The notes below the pieces were generated by a model. It was given only the letters and a program-made list of their open reading frames with translations. It had not been told where the DNA came from and made no database searches. The position numbers were made by a program, and so were the translations under genes. 64,000 nt of DNA from Clostridiales bacterium (lineage in GTDB: Bacteria; Bacillota; Clostridia; Tissierellales; GPF-1), in NCBI GenBank assembly GCA_013619125.1, contig JABXKS010000001.1, positions 62,001-126,000 of the forward strand, written 5' to 3'. Every line of letters begins with the position of its first letter. Within the stretch, counting starts at the first letter, position 1. Positions 20,874-28,045 of this stretch are shown here, piece after piece.

Positions 20874-22337
20874 ATGGAAGCGAAAGGGCCGAATTACTCG
20901 AAAATCAGAGCAATACTCAACCGAATACCCAAAAAAACCCAAGCAATTGTACTCGTGTCTGGCGTGTTGATTTTTAGTGCCGTTGGATTTGGAATGAAGG
21001 TGCAAGCCGATCAAGAAGCGGTTGTAGCACAGCATTTAATTGAAACGCAGGGGTTTGAGGTGTATTATAATGGCGAATTGTTCGCCAAGGTTAGAAACAC
21101 CTTGGATATTCAGACAACGATTGATGAAAAAGCAATGTTCCTAGAAAAAGCGGAAGGAATCGCAATGATTCCGGATGGGGAATTTACATATGAACCAACG
21201 AGCTTTGAAGATGAAGATGAAACGAGTCCGGTAGCGATTCAGCAAGCGGTTGACAGCAACGTCGAATTTCTTGCGCAAGCCACTCAAATCGTTGTGGATG
21301 GAATTGCCTTGGCTACAGTGAAATCGGAGACGGAAGCGCAGCAGATCATTGATGGAATTCAAGCGCCATATATCGCGAAGATGAGCGAAGATGGTTCGGA
21401 AATCTTTGAGGTGGGTTTGGTCGAGACCGTTTCTTTTGAAACATCCGCTACGGATCCAACAACCATTCAAACAGTAGAGAAGGTTGAAGAGTTTCTTGTA
21501 AAAGGAACAAATAGAAATGAGACTTACGTGGTACAAAGAGGAGATTGGTTCGAGAAGATCGCCTATGACCATGATATGACAGTTGTTGAATTGAAAGCGG
21601 CGAATCCTGAAATGAATTACAACTTGATTTATGCGGGCGATGATGTGAATTTGATTGTTCCTGATCCCTTTCTTTCAGTTGCCACCTATGAAAAAGCGAC
21701 CTATGAAGAGGGTATCGAGTATGGAACGGAATATACAACCTCTTCCAGCTATTACAAAGACGAAAATCGTGTAGTAAGAAGCGGGAAAGAAGGAACCAAA
21801 GAGGTTGTTGCCAATATAAAGAAAGTAAACGGAAAAGCAGTGGAAGTAGAAGTGTTGGAAGAGACTGTACTCAAGGAGCCACGCGCGAAACTGATCGCTC
21901 AAGGCACCAAAGAGATCCCGCAACTGAAGGGGACGGGGGTATTCCAATATCCAGTTCAAGTGAGCAGCTTATCTTCTCGTTTCGGGAACCGGGTGCATCC
22001 GATTACAGGGCGACCTGATTTTCATACAGGAGTTGATTGGCCAAAATCGAAAGGAACCCCGGTAAAAGCGGCGGATGGTGGAACGGTAACCTTTGCCGGA
22101 TGGAAATCTGGGTATGGATATGTTGTGTATATGGATCATGGGGGTGGATTTGAAACCCGTTATGCGCATATGAGCGCGATCTATGTGCAAAAAGGTGAAA
22201 AAGTATATAAGGATAAGTCAATTGGTGCCGTGGGAAACACCGGAAATTCAACGGGTTCGCATTTGCATTTTGAAGTACGAAAGTATGGGGTAGCGTACAA
22301 CCCGTATAACTTCTTGGACGGATCAGCGTATCGCTAA
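20874..22337 (+). CDS. Membrane-anchored M23 metallopeptidase with LysM and G5 domains (487 aa)
   Basis: Cell-wall endopeptidase. One membrane segment lies near residues 20-40 (AIVLVSGVLIFSAVGFG). An N-terminal region is followed by LysM (YVVQRGDWFEKIAYDHDMTV, about 222-270), a G5 domain (about 285-355) and a C-terminal peptidase M23 domain. Zinc ligands are H384 and D388 in FHTGVDW and H465 in HLHFEV, with H463 also present. The G5 and LysM modules bind peptidoglycan sugars. The ATG at 20874 is preferred over 20829 because GGGGGA precedes it. It lies immediately before walR, in keeping with WalRK control of wall hydrolases, although a terminator separates them. Confidence 0.9.
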   Translation: MEAKGPNYSKIRAILNRIPKKTQAIVLVSGVLIFSAVGFGMKVQADQEAVVAQHLIETQGFEVYYNGELFAKVRNTLDIQTTIDEKAMFLEKAEGIAMIPDGEFTYEPTSFEDEDETSPVAIQQAVDSNVEFLAQATQIVVDGIALATVKSETEAQQIIDGIQAPYIAKMSEDGSEIFEVGLVETVSFETSATDPTTIQTVEKVEEFLVKGTNRNETYVVQRGDWFEKIAYDHDMTVVELKAANPEMNYNLIYAGDDVNLIVPDPFLSVATYEKATYEEGIEYGTEYTTSSSYYKDENRVVRSGKEGTKEVVANIKKVNGKAVEVEVLEETVLKEPRAKLIAQGTKEIPQLKGTGVFQYPVQVSSLSSRFGNRVHPITGRPDFHTGVDWPKSKGTPVKAADGGTVTFAGWKSGYGYVVYMDHGGGFETRYAHMSAIYVQKGEKVYKDKSIGAVGNTGNSTGSHLHFEVRKYGVAYNPYNFLDGSAYR

Positions 22338-22340
22338 CAA

Positions 22341-22368
22341 GGAACTCCCATTGGGGAGTTTCTTTCTT
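22341..22368 (+). terminator. Terminator between the M23 peptidase gene and walR
   Basis: Stem GGAACTCCC / GGGAGTTTC (one G-T pair) with a 4-base loop, followed by TTTCTTC. The weak T run suggests partial read-through into walR, for which no separate promoter was found. Confidence 0.6.
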
Positions 22369-22402
22369 CAAAAGGCTTTGAAGAAAGAACAGGGGTGGAA
22401 AA

Positions 22403-23101
22403 ATGGCATATAAAATTTTAGTTGTAGAAGATGAACTGCCAATAGCTGATATTTTGAAATTCAATCTGGAACGCGAAGGATATTTGGTCGTGAATGCCTA
22501 TGATGGGGAAGAAGCGTTGCAAATGACCTTTTCAGAGAAACCAGACCTCGTTTTATTGGATGTGATGATTCCAAAAAAAGATGGATTTCAGGTGTTGAAG
22601 GAAATCCGAGATCGATCACAGTTGCCGGTTTTGATGGTAACAGCGAAGGAAGAGGAAGTGGACAAGGTGTTGGGGCTCGAGTTGGGCGCGGATGACTATA
22701 TCACGAAACCTTTTAGCATTCGAGAGCTTTTAGCACGGGTAAAAGCCAATCTACGACGCATGGGCGTGGAAGAAGTTGCAGAGAATCCAGAGGATAAACA
22801 GGTGTATCGTTTCAATGACCTGGAAATTAATTTAACCAAATACGAAGTGAAAAAACGCGGTCAAGTCATTGAGTTGACACTGCGGGAATTTGAACTGCTA
22901 CAATTCTTGGCTGCAAAGCCTGATCAGGTATTCTCCCGTGAGCAATTGTTGGAAGAAGTTTGGGGCTATGAATACTATGGCGACATTCGAACCGTAGATG
23001 TGACCGTTCGGCGACTTCGCGTCAAAGTGGAAGATGATTCATCGAAACCGAAATTCATTTTCACAAAGCGCGGTGTTGGATATTACTTTAAGAGGAGTTA
23101 A
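22403..23101 (+). CDS. walR: Response regulator WalR (YycF), OmpR family (232 aa)
   Basis: Receiver domain (1-120) with phospho-acceptor D53 in LVLLDVMIPKKDGF and acidic pocket ED at 9-10. The C-terminal winged helix (135-232) contains REFELLQFLAAKPDQVFSREQLLEEVWGYEYYGDIRTVDVTVRRLR. The WalR identity rests on sequence style and on context: WalK, YycH, YycI and YycJ homologues follow. It regulates cell-wall hydrolases and is often essential in Firmicutes. PhoP is a close relative, but the neighbourhood favours WalR. It ends two bases before walK. Confidence 0.93.
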   Translation: MAYKILVVEDELPIADILKFNLEREGYLVVNAYDGEEALQMTFSEKPDLVLLDVMIPKKDGFQVLKEIRDRSQLPVLMVTAKEEEVDKVLGLELGADDYITKPFSIRELLARVKANLRRMGVEEVAENPEDKQVYRFNDLEINLTKYEVKKRGQVIELTLREFELLQFLAAKPDQVFSREQLLEEVWGYEYYGDIRTVDVTVRRLRVKVEDDSSKPKFIFTKRGVGYYFKRS

Positions 23102-23103
23102 CG

Positions 23104-24921
23104 ATGTTTAAAAGCATACGATGGCGACTTGTGATCATCTACTTTTTACTAGTTTTTATGGCGGTTACCGTGGTTGGGGTTTTTATTCTCGATCGGTTGC
23201 GGTCGCAGCAGGAAGAGTGGACTCTCAATAATATGCGTCAATACGCGGAACAAGTGCAAGTATTGCCTTCGCTCCGAGCAGATGACTGGGTGGAGAATGA
23301 ATCGCAATTGGTCGAGTCTTTTTCCAATTGGCCGATTGCTCAGACGGATCAGGCGTATTTGCTGCGTATGGATGGAACAGTGCCGAGGGTGTTGTCCAGT
23401 TCCATGGGAGCGCAAAATCTGATTGGGAAACTGGCATACGAAACAGAAGTGATCGATAACGAGTTGGTTTTTAATGCCCTGAATGGGGAAAAAGAAGATA
23501 AAATCAAGAAGGGAACCTATCAGCCCGAAGATACAGTGGCGCACTTGGTGGTTCCTTTGTTTTCTGTCAGCGGCGAGATCAAGGGTTTGATTTATGTGAC
23601 CAGTGATCTGGAAGTGACCAACCAGGTTCTTTCTGCATCGCGAACCATTTTGTTTCAAGGGATGGCGTTGGCGTTAGTGCTTACGGTAATCATGGGATCG
23701 ATTTTATCTCGATCAATTACGGTTCCGATTCAAGCGGTAACAATTAAGGCAGCAAAAATGGCTGAGGGAGACTTCGACCAAAAGGTGGATGTGAAGTCCG
23801 ATGATGAACTGGGCCAATTGGCCATGATGTTCAACAGTTTGACGGACGAATTGAAAAAGACGATATCGCAGCTGTCGGAAGAGGGCAGCAAGTTGGAAGC
23901 CCTGTTTACCAATATGGCGGACGGCTTGATTGCGATCGATACAAAGGGAAAATTGCTCCATGCCAACCCAATTGCACGAAAGTTGTTTGTGATTGACGAA
24001 ATGGAGAAAGAGCAAGATGTATTGTCGCTGCTGCAGGAACTGCGTCCGGATGTTCAATTGGATCATTTGATGACCTCCGAAGATGCGCGGGGTGAACTGA
24101 TGCTGGAATTTAGCCCTGAGGAAATCTATCGCGCGCATTACGCGCCTTTCCTCAATGACAAAGGAGAACGCAGTGGCTTGATCCTGGTTTTTCAAGATAT
24201 TACGGAGCAATATAAGCTTGAAACCATGCGGCGAGAATTTGTCGCCAATGTTTCTCACGAACTTAAAACCCCCATTACAACCATTAAAAGCTACACAGAA
24301 ACCATTATGGACGGAGTTTTGGACGACAAAGAGATGTCGACGAAATTTTTGGGTGTTATCAATAATGAATGTGATCGCATGACGCGCATTGTTCGCGATC
24401 TTTTACAATTGTCTTCGATGGACTATCAGGAAACGAATTGGGAGTTGAGCGAAGTCTGCCTGCAGGAACTATTGGAATTGGTCGATTTGAAGATGAAGAT
24501 TTCCGCGCAGGCCAAGAACCAGCAATTGCGGATTCGAATCGAACCGACGCTTCCTTGTTTGACCGGAAATCGGGATGCCTTGGAGCAAGTAATGCTTAAT
24601 GTCGTATCCAATGCTATCAAGTATACCCAAGAGGGCGGAACGATTGATATGCATGCCTATATGGAAGAATCTCATTTGATGGTTCGCGTGCGAGACAACG
24701 GCAGCGGAATTCCACAAGAGGATTTGGATCGAATTTTCGAAAGATTTTATCGTGTTAACAAGGCGAGAAGCCGAGCCATGGGCGGAACAGGACTGGGGCT
24801 TTCCATTGCAAAGCAGATTGTTGAGTTGCATGGAGGCAGTATTCAAATTCAAAGCAATCTGGGTGAAGGTACCGTTGTGGAAATTCGTTTCCGAGACGGT
24901 AATGCCCAAGAACGGGTTTAA
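23104..24921 (+). CDS. walK: Sensor histidine kinase WalK (YycG) (605 aa)
   Basis: TM1 near residues 9-29, an extracytoplasmic sensor of about 145 residues, TM2 near 178-200, HAMP (200-255), PAS (about 262-370), HisKA with phospho-accepting H385 in FVANVSHELKTPITTI, and HATPase with NVVSNAIKYTQEGG and MGGTGLGLSIAKQIVELHGG. This is the canonical WalK layout. It senses wall or membrane signals and phosphorylates WalR. It is co-transcribed with walR (2-base gap). Confidence 0.95.
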   Translation: MFKSIRWRLVIIYFLLVFMAVTVVGVFILDRLRSQQEEWTLNNMRQYAEQVQVLPSLRADDWVENESQLVESFSNWPIAQTDQAYLLRMDGTVPRVLSSSMGAQNLIGKLAYETEVIDNELVFNALNGEKEDKIKKGTYQPEDTVAHLVVPLFSVSGEIKGLIYVTSDLEVTNQVLSASRTILFQGMALALVLTVIMGSILSRSITVPIQAVTIKAAKMAEGDFDQKVDVKSDDELGQLAMMFNSLTDELKKTISQLSEEGSKLEALFTNMADGLIAIDTKGKLLHANPIARKLFVIDEMEKEQDVLSLLQELRPDVQLDHLMTSEDARGELMLEFSPEEIYRAHYAPFLNDKGERSGLILVFQDITEQYKLETMRREFVANVSHELKTPITTIKSYTETIMDGVLDDKEMSTKFLGVINNECDRMTRIVRDLLQLSSMDYQETNWELSEVCLQELLELVDLKMKISAQAKNQQLRIRIEPTLPCLTGNRDALEQVMLNVVSNAIKYTQEGGTIDMHAYMEESHLMVRVRDNGSGIPQEDLDRIFERFYRVNKARSRAMGGTGLGLSIAKQIVELHGGSIQIQSNLGEGTVVEIRFRDGNAQERV

Positions 24922-24938
24922 ATCAATCGTAATTGATC

Positions 24939-24971
24939 TGTAACCATCCTGTAATGATGAGTCGATATAAT
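24939..24971 (+). promoter_or_regulatory. WalR-type box overlapping the -35 of an internal promoter
   Basis: TGTAAC-CATCC-TGTAAT (24939-24955) fits the known WalR consensus TGTWAH-N5-TGTWAH at every position. A -10 TATAAT lies at 24966-24971, ten bases after the box, and there is no -35 hexamer. This is the geometry of an activator-dependent promoter of the OmpR/PhoB class. It drives the 25003 gene and probably yycH and yycI. Confidence 0.75.
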
Positions 24972-25002
24972 GGGGAAGTAACATGTATTCTGGAGGGAAA
25001 CA

Positions 25003-25677
25003 ATGAAGAAGACACCCATACTCATCCTAGTCGGGATGGCGCTCATCTTTTGGATCTGCTGCGCAAGCGCGGGTTTTGCCGATGAGGGATCAATCAATCA
25101 AGTGAATAGTGAGCCACTCGATATGGAGATTCTCTCGCCAGAGGGAAACTATGTGTCTTCGACTGGAAAAATCCCCATCTCATTGCAGTCTACGGGAGGA
25201 AGTATTGTCACGGTGAAAATTTATCCGATGGATTCGGAGTATTTAGCCATGGGAAGCTTTCGATTGGATGTCAGAGACATGGTTGTTGAATATCATGCAG
25301 CTGTCTTGCCTGCGGTGCAAAGAATGACGGATGAAGGTCTTGGAGACATTGAATTGGATGAAACGGGCGAAGAAATCGAAGCGGAGAAAACAACCGAGAC
25401 GATTGAACTTCCCAGCCTACCGAGCAAGATGTTTTCGGAAACCATTGGCCAGACGGGTCGTTGGTTGTACGAATTGACTTTGAAGCCGGGGCGATATCTC
25501 CTTTTGATTCAAGCGGAAGGCAATATGCGGCGATCAGAGGAATATGCAATATCCATTACCGTAACGAGTATGGAGCGGGCAACTGAATTTTTAGAGAAGC
25601 TGGAAGAAGAAGCGGAGTATTCGTATATGAGTCCAGCTGTGCTAGCCCCCATACAACGGCCACTTTCCATGTATTAA
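25003..25677 (+). CDS. Exported protein of unknown function in the WalRK operon (224 aa)
   Basis: Not recognised. A signal peptide is visible in residues 1-26 (MKKTPILILVGMALIFWICC, likely cleavage after AGFA). The mature part begins with a segment, EILSPEGNYVSSTGKIPISLQ, that looks like an Ig-like beta-sandwich, has an acidic central linker (about residues 110-135, rich in Glu and Thr), and then another beta-rich part with GRWLYELTLKPGRYLLLIQAEG. It carries no Cys in the mature part. It lies between walK and yycH, behind a WalR-type box, with its own RBS (GGAGGG). The context suggests a wall-side accessory or a sensor partner of WalK. YycH/YycI in Bacillus modulate WalK, but this protein is not one of them. 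Confidence 0.75.
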   Translation: MKKTPILILVGMALIFWICCASAGFADEGSINQVNSEPLDMEILSPEGNYVSSTGKIPISLQSTGGSIVTVKIYPMDSEYLAMGSFRLDVRDMVVEYHAAVLPAVQRMTDEGLGDIELDETGEEIEAEKTTETIELPSLPSKMFSETIGQTGRWLYELTLKPGRYLLLIQAEGNMRRSEEYAISITVTSMERATEFLEKLEEEAEYSYMSPAVLAPIQRPLSMY

Positions 25678-25695: not shown

Positions 25696-27117
25696 ATGGA
25701 ACGAATAAAAACCATGATTATTATCGGACTTTTCGCGATGTCAGTGTTTCTGTCATCGCAAGTTTTATATACAACAAAGCCATTGATTGGAGAGGAAGAA
25801 GCGATACCTGTGGTGTCGTCTTTTGTGCTCTCCAATTTTGTTTTGCCCGAAAGTATGGTTTTGCACTTTTCGAAGGATTCCCATACCATTTTGTCTCCAA
25901 CCAAGGAACCGGCGCTATGGGAGGCTGGAAAGCTTCAAATGAAAATGGTGTTGGAATCGGCGAACACGGTTCAAGAAGAGATAGATTGGGAAGTTTTGCG
26001 GGAGAAAAAGTCGGAAAAATCCATCGACTATTTATTTTCCTTTCCCGCCCCAACCGAATTGATATTGCGCACCTACGGGATCGTACCTGACGAGGGTTTA
26101 AATTTACCGGATTCCATTACAGGGATCTGGATCAGTGGAGACAACGGCGAGGTTGTATTGATGCAGGAGAAATCCGCGGTTCGCTTCTCATCGAACAGTG
26201 CAACCGGCAACCTATTGGCATTGATTCGCGAGGCACGGGAGGAAGAGTATATCCATTACTATCCCGGAGTTTTGTTAAACGATAAGGCGGAGTTTTATCT
26301 GCCGATTACCCTGGGGGATGTTTTGCCGAATGTGCGGGTGCAGTCTGCGGTCGACGTGAATGATTCAGTCTCTTTGGAAAAAATGGCCAAAGGATTCTTT
26401 GAAGAGAATTATCCCTATGCCAGACGAATTGTAGAGAGTGACTATACCACGATTTTTGTCCAGGGGAATGATACCTTGGTGATTTCAGAAGGTGGATTGT
26501 TGGAGTATTCCAATACCGCTGTAATGCTCAGTCAATCGAGCAGTTTATTTGAAGGGCTGCAGGTAGCCGGACAATTTATTGAGGATCGGGATCAGATCGG
26601 CGCTCCGGTGTATTTGACCGGGGTTGAAATCGGAGAGGATCATTATGGGGTGGCAACCTATGAGTTTGCGTTTTCGTATTTTATCAATGACACGCCGGTG
26701 CGGTTAAAAAAAGAGATGGAGGAGAGTTGGAATCTTCGCGCTCCCATCATGGTGCTGGTGAAGAACAATGAGGTGAAAACCTATCGAAGGGTGCTTCGGA
26801 TCGTGCAGCCTGAATTTCAGCCTTTGCCGCAAGACACCTTGAGCCCGCAGGACGTGATCGATCGAAACTTTGACACCATTGTCGCCCGCTACCAAGGTTC
26901 CTTGAGAGCCAGGGGTGAAGCGGAACCGGAGAATTATGGCGAAGCTATTTATCAAGCGATCGAGGATGTAAAGCTTTCCTATTTTGATTGCCCTGAGCAA
27001 CGGATGAATGGGGAAATGGAATTGATCGGAATATGGGAAGTACTGATCGATGATTATGCGTATTATTTTGACGTGCATACGGGGAACCTTGTGGACGTGG
27101 TTGAGAAAGAGGGATAA
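25696..27117 (+). CDS. yycH: YycH family regulator of WalK (473 aa)
   Basis: One N-terminal membrane segment (residues 5-22, MIIIGLFAMSVFLSSQVLY) and a long extracytoplasmic domain are the YycH architecture. In Bacillus and Staphylococcus YycH forms a complex with YycI and WalK at the membrane and tunes kinase activity. The length fits the family (about 450). Start ATG after GGAGAGGGTTTT. Two bases separate it from yycI, so both come from one transcript. Its sequence is divergent, and identification relies strongly on position and topology. Confidence 0.8.
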   Translation: MERIKTMIIIGLFAMSVFLSSQVLYTTKPLIGEEEAIPVVSSFVLSNFVLPESMVLHFSKDSHTILSPTKEPALWEAGKLQMKMVLESANTVQEEIDWEVLREKKSEKSIDYLFSFPAPTELILRTYGIVPDEGLNLPDSITGIWISGDNGEVVLMQEKSAVRFSSNSATGNLLALIREAREEEYIHYYPGVLLNDKAEFYLPITLGDVLPNVRVQSAVDVNDSVSLEKMAKGFFEENYPYARRIVESDYTTIFVQGNDTLVISEGGLLEYSNTAVMLSQSSSLFEGLQVAGQFIEDRDQIGAPVYLTGVEIGEDHYGVATYEFAFSYFINDTPVRLKKEMEESWNLRAPIMVLVKNNEVKTYRRVLRIVQPEFQPLPQDTLSPQDVIDRNFDTIVARYQGSLRARGEAEPENYGEAIYQAIEDVKLSYFDCPEQRMNGEMELIGIWEVLIDDYAYYFDVHTGNLVDVVEKEG

Positions 27118-27119
27118 GG

Positions 27120-27992
27120 ATGGATTGGTCGAAGGCGAAAAACATCTTAATTATTGGCTTTACCATTACCAATCTCTTGCTGTTTGCTCTATGGCTGCGA
27201 GAAGGGGAGCGAAAAGTTGATCCGAATGTCAGCGCGGAATATGTCGTGGCGGTTCAGGAACAATTAAAGGAGAATCATATTCGCTTTTCAGGAGAGATGG
27301 ATACGGATCGGAAACTGATAGCGCCGGTGATGGTGCAATTTGTAGAATTGAATGGACCAACCACTGCATATACTTTGTTTGGCAAAGAGTATGCAGTGAC
27401 CACAGATCCCTACTTCGAAAAATACGAAACTGAAACAGAGACGTTGACCTTTAATTTCGGGAAGGAGTTCTTTTATACCAGCCGAGCAGTGGAGGAAAAA
27501 TATCTAAATTTGGATAAAACCCAAGCAGAGGAAATTGCCATGGCATTTCTAGCCAAGATGGGAATTGAATCCGATGTGGTGCGTTTGGCGTATGTGAATG
27601 AAGTGGAATATCGGGAACCGCATACCGGGTATCGTTTGAAACCATCCAGTTATCAAGTGAGATTCTTGAGCACCGATGGCAAGAATCTGATTGGAGGCAG
27701 TTTTTTCGATCTAAGCGTAACAAGAGCCGGGGTGATTTTTGCCCATGGGTTGGCCCTAGAAGTAGTCCGGATATCGGGCGAGACGTTGTCGATGCCGCGT
27801 ATGCCGGATGCCTTGCTGATCTTGATTGGGATGCAGGAAAATCAGTATAAACAGATCGTATCTGCCGAGATTGCGTACAATTTCGATCCCTATAAAAACG
27901 ACTATTTTTTTGGAGATGTTATCGAGGGGGAAGCACTGCCAGCCTGGCGATTTCAGTATAGTGACGGGAGTGTACAGTATTTAGATCTTTAA
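27120..27992 (+). CDS. yycI: YycI family regulator of WalK (290 aa)
   Basis: Begins MDWSKAKNILIIGFTITNLL, a hallmark start of YycI proteins, with one membrane helix (residues 8-26) and an external domain with the YycI fold. It acts with YycH on WalK. GGGATAAGG lies just before the ATG, overlapping the yycH stop region. It is followed by a new promoter for murA. Confidence 0.88.
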   Translation: MDWSKAKNILIIGFTITNLLLFALWLREGERKVDPNVSAEYVVAVQEQLKENHIRFSGEMDTDRKLIAPVMVQFVELNGPTTAYTLFGKEYAVTTDPYFEKYETETETLTFNFGKEFFYTSRAVEEKYLNLDKTQAEEIAMAFLAKMGIESDVVRLAYVNEVEYREPHTGYRLKPSSYQVRFLSTDGKNLIGGSFFDLSVTRAGVIFAHGLALEVVRISGETLSMPRMPDALLILIGMQENQYKQIVSAEIAYNFDPYKNDYFFGDVIEGEALPAWRFQYSDGSVQYLDL

Positions 27993-28017: not shown

Positions 28018-28045
28018 TTGAATTCTGGCTCTAATTTTATATAAT
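28018..28045 (+). promoter_or_regulatory. Promoter of murA
   Basis: TTGAAT (28018-28023), 16 bases, TATAAT (28040-28045). Transcription would start near 28052. Confidence 0.65.

Follow-up and report, generated by a model that had tools for sequence, protein, structure and literature searches.

The response regulator WalR and the histidine kinase WalK are essential in several Gram-positive bacteria. The wal operon of Bacillus subtilis and the walRKHI operon of Staphylococcus aureus share the order walR, walK, yycH, yycI, and, according to the accessible part of the source, in B. subtilis YycH and YycI repress WalKR activity, and in S. aureus they raise it (PMC10746227). The S. aureus walRKHI promoters are given as mapped solely upstream of walR in the available portion of another report (PMC4801191). 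For Clostridioides difficile, the sections available give the WalR consensus as TGTWAH-N5-TGTWAH, report that S-layer genes are raised by WalR and describe a walRK operon that has no yycHI and does not regulate itself; wal operons are described there as not autoregulated (PMC9210968). The promoter described here resembles the WalR regulon promoters of Bacillus, Staphylococcus and Clostridioides in its consensus and in the wall hydrolase and S-layer targets, but it lies inside the wal locus behind walK, has four half-sites and keeps a fixed 10-nt gap to the -10 element. Unlike the S. aureus and B. subtilis operons, the locus has an exported gene with its own predicted promoter inserted between walK and yycH.

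The window, i.e. the whole 64-kb stretch of DNA that was analysed, carries in order an M23 protein gene, walR, walK, the exported protein gene, yycH-like and yycI-like genes, murA and a metallo-beta-lactamase gene (walJ-like). The features of the locus are as follows.

20874-22337, LysM-G5-M23 protein, 5' of walR
22403..23101, plus strand, walR (yycF), response regulator; best NCBIfam family YycF, 339.6 bits (cut-off 340; next family 250)
23104..24921, plus strand, walK (yycG), histidine kinase; best NCBIfam family WalK, 508 bits (below the cut-off of 725); orthologues in relatives
24917..24922, plus strand, fourth half-site (-49), TTTAAA, weak in the window and overlapping the walK stop codon; register taken from 48 promoters aligned on the -10 element
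24928..24933, plus strand, third half-site (-38), CGTAAT
24939..24955, plus strand, proximal WalR-type box with half-sites -27 and -16, TGTAAC-N5-TGTAAT
24966..24971, plus strand, -10 element TATAAT without a -35 element; predicted transcription start near 24978
24992..24996, plus strand, ribosome-binding site GGAGG, assigned from the sequence
25003..25677, plus strand, exported protein of 224 aa from the walK-linked family, assigned with an HMM that left out its genus and with a profile run over 100 genomes
25696..27117, plus strand, yycH-like gene of 473 aa, placed second in the presumed WalR unit, assigned via orthologues
27120..27992, plus strand, yycI-like gene of 290 aa, placed third in the presumed WalR unit, assigned via orthologues

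Neither the yycH-like nor the yycI-like protein of the window has a Pfam match of its own. Among 20 aligned orthologues of each, three match PF07435 for the former (best E 3.6e-17) and 11 match PF09648 for the latter (best E 1.2e-11). A promoter-like site precedes murA (28018-28045), and the presumed WalR unit may therefore end with yycI. At 22341-22370, in the stretch that separates the M23 gene from walR, inspection by eye showed a hairpin that ends in a T-rich tail and is absent from the scan list; walR may be transcriptionally separate from the M23 gene.

The original observation was of a WalR-type box with activator-type spacing inside the wal operon, and both were confirmed; the interpretation put on them was supported in part. 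The TGTAACCATCCTGTAAT box, whose first base lies 17 nt 3' of walK, matches the WalR consensus perfectly at 24939-24955, and exactly 10 nt separate it from TATAAT. The hexamers at 16, 17 and 18 nt (CCATCC, ACCATC and AACCAT) offer no -35 element, and an extended -10 is likewise absent from the window promoter, so a housekeeping promoter was rejected. The stricter pattern TGTAAY-N5-TGTAAY occurs once in the 64-kb window against 0.01 expected from shuffles, and the combination of box and -10 at the fixed distance also occurs once, perfectly, against 0.09 expected with up to two mismatches. The loose consensus with one mismatch allowed was not significant in the window (14 matches, 9 expected). 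The box had been proposed as a pair of half-sites; both are present, but the array continues upstream of the proximal pair, where CGTAAT (24928) and a weak TTTAAA (24917) keep to the 11-bp register and bring the total to four half-sites.

The DNA 3' of walK was compared in 80 of the 81 loci of the order with a full-type WalK orthologue (the window and L060-L138; G004, which is truncated at a contig end, was left out). The exported family follows walK in 49 of these loci and is absent from 31. A box with few mismatches and the exact 10-nt gap to the -10 element was found in 48 of the 49 family loci. The sole family locus of the order that departs from the promoter geometry, L136 (G046), has degenerate half-sites and a TATAAT further downstream. 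When the 48 promoters were aligned on the -10 element, four half-sites at -49, -38, -27 and -16 were all conserved in the relatives; as both proximal half-sites and the -10 element had been required with few mismatches, only the -49 and -38 half-sites and the flanks are independent evidence in that alignment.

Perfect matches to the promoter pattern occurred in 42 of the 49 gaps between walK and the exported gene, whereas dinucleotide shuffles of the same gaps gave an expectation of 0.0. Across the 100 genomes of the order there were 62 perfect matches, in 53 genomes, compared with one for the reversed pattern. Of these 53 genomes, 42 have a perfect match 3' of walK, and 38 of the 42 have no other perfect match. 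The box was found upstream of walR in none of 78 regions. The loci without the exported gene are a weak control, since walK mostly abuts yycH there and the box may be missing in part for lack of room.

The exported protein is a member of an undescribed exported family, unnamed in the libraries searched. The 224-aa ORF at 25003-25677 has an N-terminus resembling a signal peptide and gave no match in Pfam or NCBIfam. In that sense it is unrecognised, as had been stated, but it also belongs, as a diverged member, to a walK-linked family that is widespread. A single-sequence search matched only 3 of 41 genomes and was misleading as to the extent of the family; the idea of a genus-specific protein was rejected when a profile revealed the wider family. 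An HMM built without the window's genus recovered the window protein among 2202 ORFs (E 2.9e-12, 43.4 bits). With the 49-member profile, 49 of the 100 whole genomes of the order matched, and every main match is the gene directly 3' of walK. There were two weak extra matches, G046:C7:74123 (3.1e-5) and G040:C189:8636 (5.9e-5). Family members are about 150-310 aa long and start with a signal-peptide-like segment.

The nearest named domain is Glucodextranase domain B (PF09136), with weak matches in 21 of the 49 members (best E 1.8e-6); of 10 other members scanned, five matched at 18.6-22.6 bits, below the cut-off of 27 bits, and the window protein itself had no match to this domain. NCBIfam profile searches of the family gave nothing useful and PDB profile searches no credible match. 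An AlphaFold2 model from a two-row alignment reached a mean pLDDT of 34.3 and was not used.

Absence of the box in close relatives had been named beforehand as one outcome that would refute the proposal, and this outcome did not occur. The two sister species carry an identical box, and it is kept throughout the order, in the wider class and in a second class. In the class, the family was present in 77 of 391 genomes, three of them from this order; of the other 74 genomes, 31 loci, mainly the best-scoring ones, were compared. The box with the 10-nt gap was found in 30 of the 31 (a count that takes in L191, and four loci where the TATAAT at 10 nt overlaps a second match at 12), the gap being 11 in L208. 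The first half-site of L212 has two mismatches, and the -10 element deviates from TATAAT in L203, L205 and L213. The exported gene lies directly 3' of walK in 26 of the 31 class loci. An ORF intervenes between the two genes in L213, L211 begins near a contig end, and in L203 (the same locus as L224), L208 and L230 no walK was present in the DNA examined and the box was kept on the exported gene. Two of these, L224 and L230, are from one family of the class, where the exported gene stands apart from walK in the 5.8 kb examined and has both the box and the 10-nt gap. Among 20 longer class regions walK was present in 18, and all 18 of these have the box, an exported ORF and ORFs whose lengths fit YycH and YycI.

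Across the phylum the family was present in 24 of 398 genomes, the window's genome included. All 11 loci compared from the 23 others, mainly the best-scoring ones and belonging to another class, lie behind walK and have the box with a gap of 10, the -10 element being weak in L250 and L254 (the latter judged by eye). Taken over the order, the other orders and the second class, the exact 10-nt gap was found in 89 of 91 loci, which are related by descent and hence not independent.

We consider it probable that phosphorylated WalR switches on the promoter behind walK, which would drive the exported protein, yycH and yycI as a feedback arm. WalR~P, the product of the adjacent upstream genes, would bind the four tandem TGTAAY-type half-sites as two dimers, of which the proximal one would stand in for the -35 element at 10 nt from TATAAT. 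RNA polymerase, presumably a poor starter on its own at this promoter, would be recruited by WalR, and transcription would begin near 24978. The weak distal half-sites of the window count against this mechanism, as does the lack of autoregulation reported for walRK of C. difficile, although that operon is without yycHI. The layout is that of the PhoB-dependent promoters of Escherichia coli, where direct 11-bp repeats replace the -35 element about 10 nt from the -10 element; the regulator and the half-site differ here, and the promoter is not a member of that family.

Activation is the more likely mode because there is no -35 element. The opposite sign, in which WalR~P occupies the spacer as a repressor of the exported protein and of yycHI, so that they are made when WalR activity falls, appears improbable. 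It has a precedent in S. aureus, where WalR sites between or downstream of the -35 and -10 elements are associated with negative regulation in the available part of the source (PMC10746227), and the proximal box fills just that stretch. However, polymerase has no usable -35 element here: 42 of the 48 order promoters have at most two of six matches in the -35 hexamer, compared with about half of random positions, i.e. they are poorer than random; the extended -10 was found in none of the 48. The four half-sites also extend far upstream, like an activator array.

As to which regulator binds, the response regulators themselves point to WalR: five from distant loci have YycF as their best family (338-347 bits, next families 252-271), as does that of the window. 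A site for another OmpR-family regulator, most likely PhoP/PhoB, is a smaller chance still than repression by WalR. The half-sites of PhoP and WalR are similar, and the window's genome encodes 15 OmpR-type DNA-binding domains. The comparison with pstS covered 13 of 14 loci in eight genomes (L246, with no ORF, was left out; L237 and L243 are one place). None of the 13 has the box in coding sense before pstS, and six (L235, L239, L241, L242, L244 and L245) have PhoP-like TTAACA-N5 arrays before the pstS-like gene, where the TTAACA motif reads in coding sense and is thereby opposite to the walK-linked box. After this comparison a PhoP site was held unlikely; the site is, moreover, tied to walRK.

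The perfect sites elsewhere in the genomes also argue against PhoP/PhoB. In the order's 100 genomes, 20 such sites lie away from walK. Four of them stand before SLH S-layer-like proteins (G000, G001, G002 and G075; Pfam was applied to the first and last of these), three before NlpC/P60 proteins where the genome lacks the exported gene, and one before a response-regulator-like gene (G016). Sites before S-layer and NlpC/P60 genes fit the expectation for WalR.

Some of these sites deserve separate mention. The only other perfect box-N10-TATAAT in the window's genome (G000:C125:15887-15919; L014, L018, L183) precedes an SLH S-layer-like protein and is kept in both sister species (also L020 and L022); a reverse-sense second box, TTTACAATCAGATTACAAA, lies in the leader of the SLH S-layer-like gene. 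The three NlpC/P60 sites (L166, L167 and L168, from G006, G036 and G047) come from a genus without the exported gene, with one perfect site per genome. Twelve further sites (L170-L175 and L177-L182) come from two families that lack the exported gene; they consist of a look-alike TGTAAT, an A-rich spacer (e.g. TAAAA), TGTAATT and then TATAAT, and precede pilin-, PilX-, SpaA-, PilB-like and other genes. They are possibly the regulon of a different factor.

It is very improbable that AT-rich DNA holds these repeats by accident and that read-through from walRK is the only source of transcripts for the exported gene and yycHI. In favour of this reading, the loose consensus falls short of significance in the window and the scan gave no terminator-like site between walK and the exported gene; but 42 of 49 perfect matches against 0.0 in shuffles, 62 against one for the reversed pattern and an exact gap in 89 of 91 loci are at odds with it. 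A chance repeat was accordingly rejected on window shuffles, the reversed-pattern count and gap shuffles. Read-through may supply yycHI anyway, there being no terminator-like site.

To return to activation by WalR, the promoter lies between walK and the exported gene, a position which would let WalR drive yycH and yycI, in agreement with what had been proposed. The unit transcribed would comprise the exported protein, YycH and YycI, and WalR output would set the amount of WalK's extracytoplasmic partners through an arm distinct from the walRK genes, which themselves lack a box. From the arrangement of sites and genes we infer WalR binding, activation, co-transcription of yycHI and feedback. 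As the effects of YycH and YycI are opposite in B. subtilis and S. aureus, the loop may be negative or positive.

The exclusive linkage of the family to walK suggests that the exported protein works with WalK at the wall, as its partner or modulator. The more specific reading, that it is a third extracytoplasmic partner of WalK beside YycH and YycI, of an age that makes it common to two classes of the phylum, and controlled by WalR via a dedicated promoter in the wal locus, is tentative, and we rate it at somewhat under an even chance. No report of the walK-linked promoter or the exported protein was found in the literature searched, mostly without subscription papers, which included the accessible parts of PMC9210968, PMC10746227, PMC4801191, PMC11502775 and PMC8457756; the last, a Clostridium thermocellum DAP-seq paper, holds no WalR data in the part available.

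The sole perfect WalR-type promoter site in 38 of the order's 100 genomes is the one 3' of walK, where it marks an exported family unnamed in the libraries searched and provides a testable candidate for an extracytoplasmic WalK partner. The walK-linked promoter could serve as a natural reporter of WalR activity for anaerobes that lack a known regulon. Its recurrence in many related anaerobes makes it probable that the arrangement is a feedback arm built into wall control. If WalR does act here as proposed, the statement that wal operons are not autoregulated would hold just for walRK themselves; and if the exported protein is indeed a partner of WalK, the wall-sensing system would, contrary to what is in print, carry a transcriptional feedback loop on the cofactors of its own sensor.
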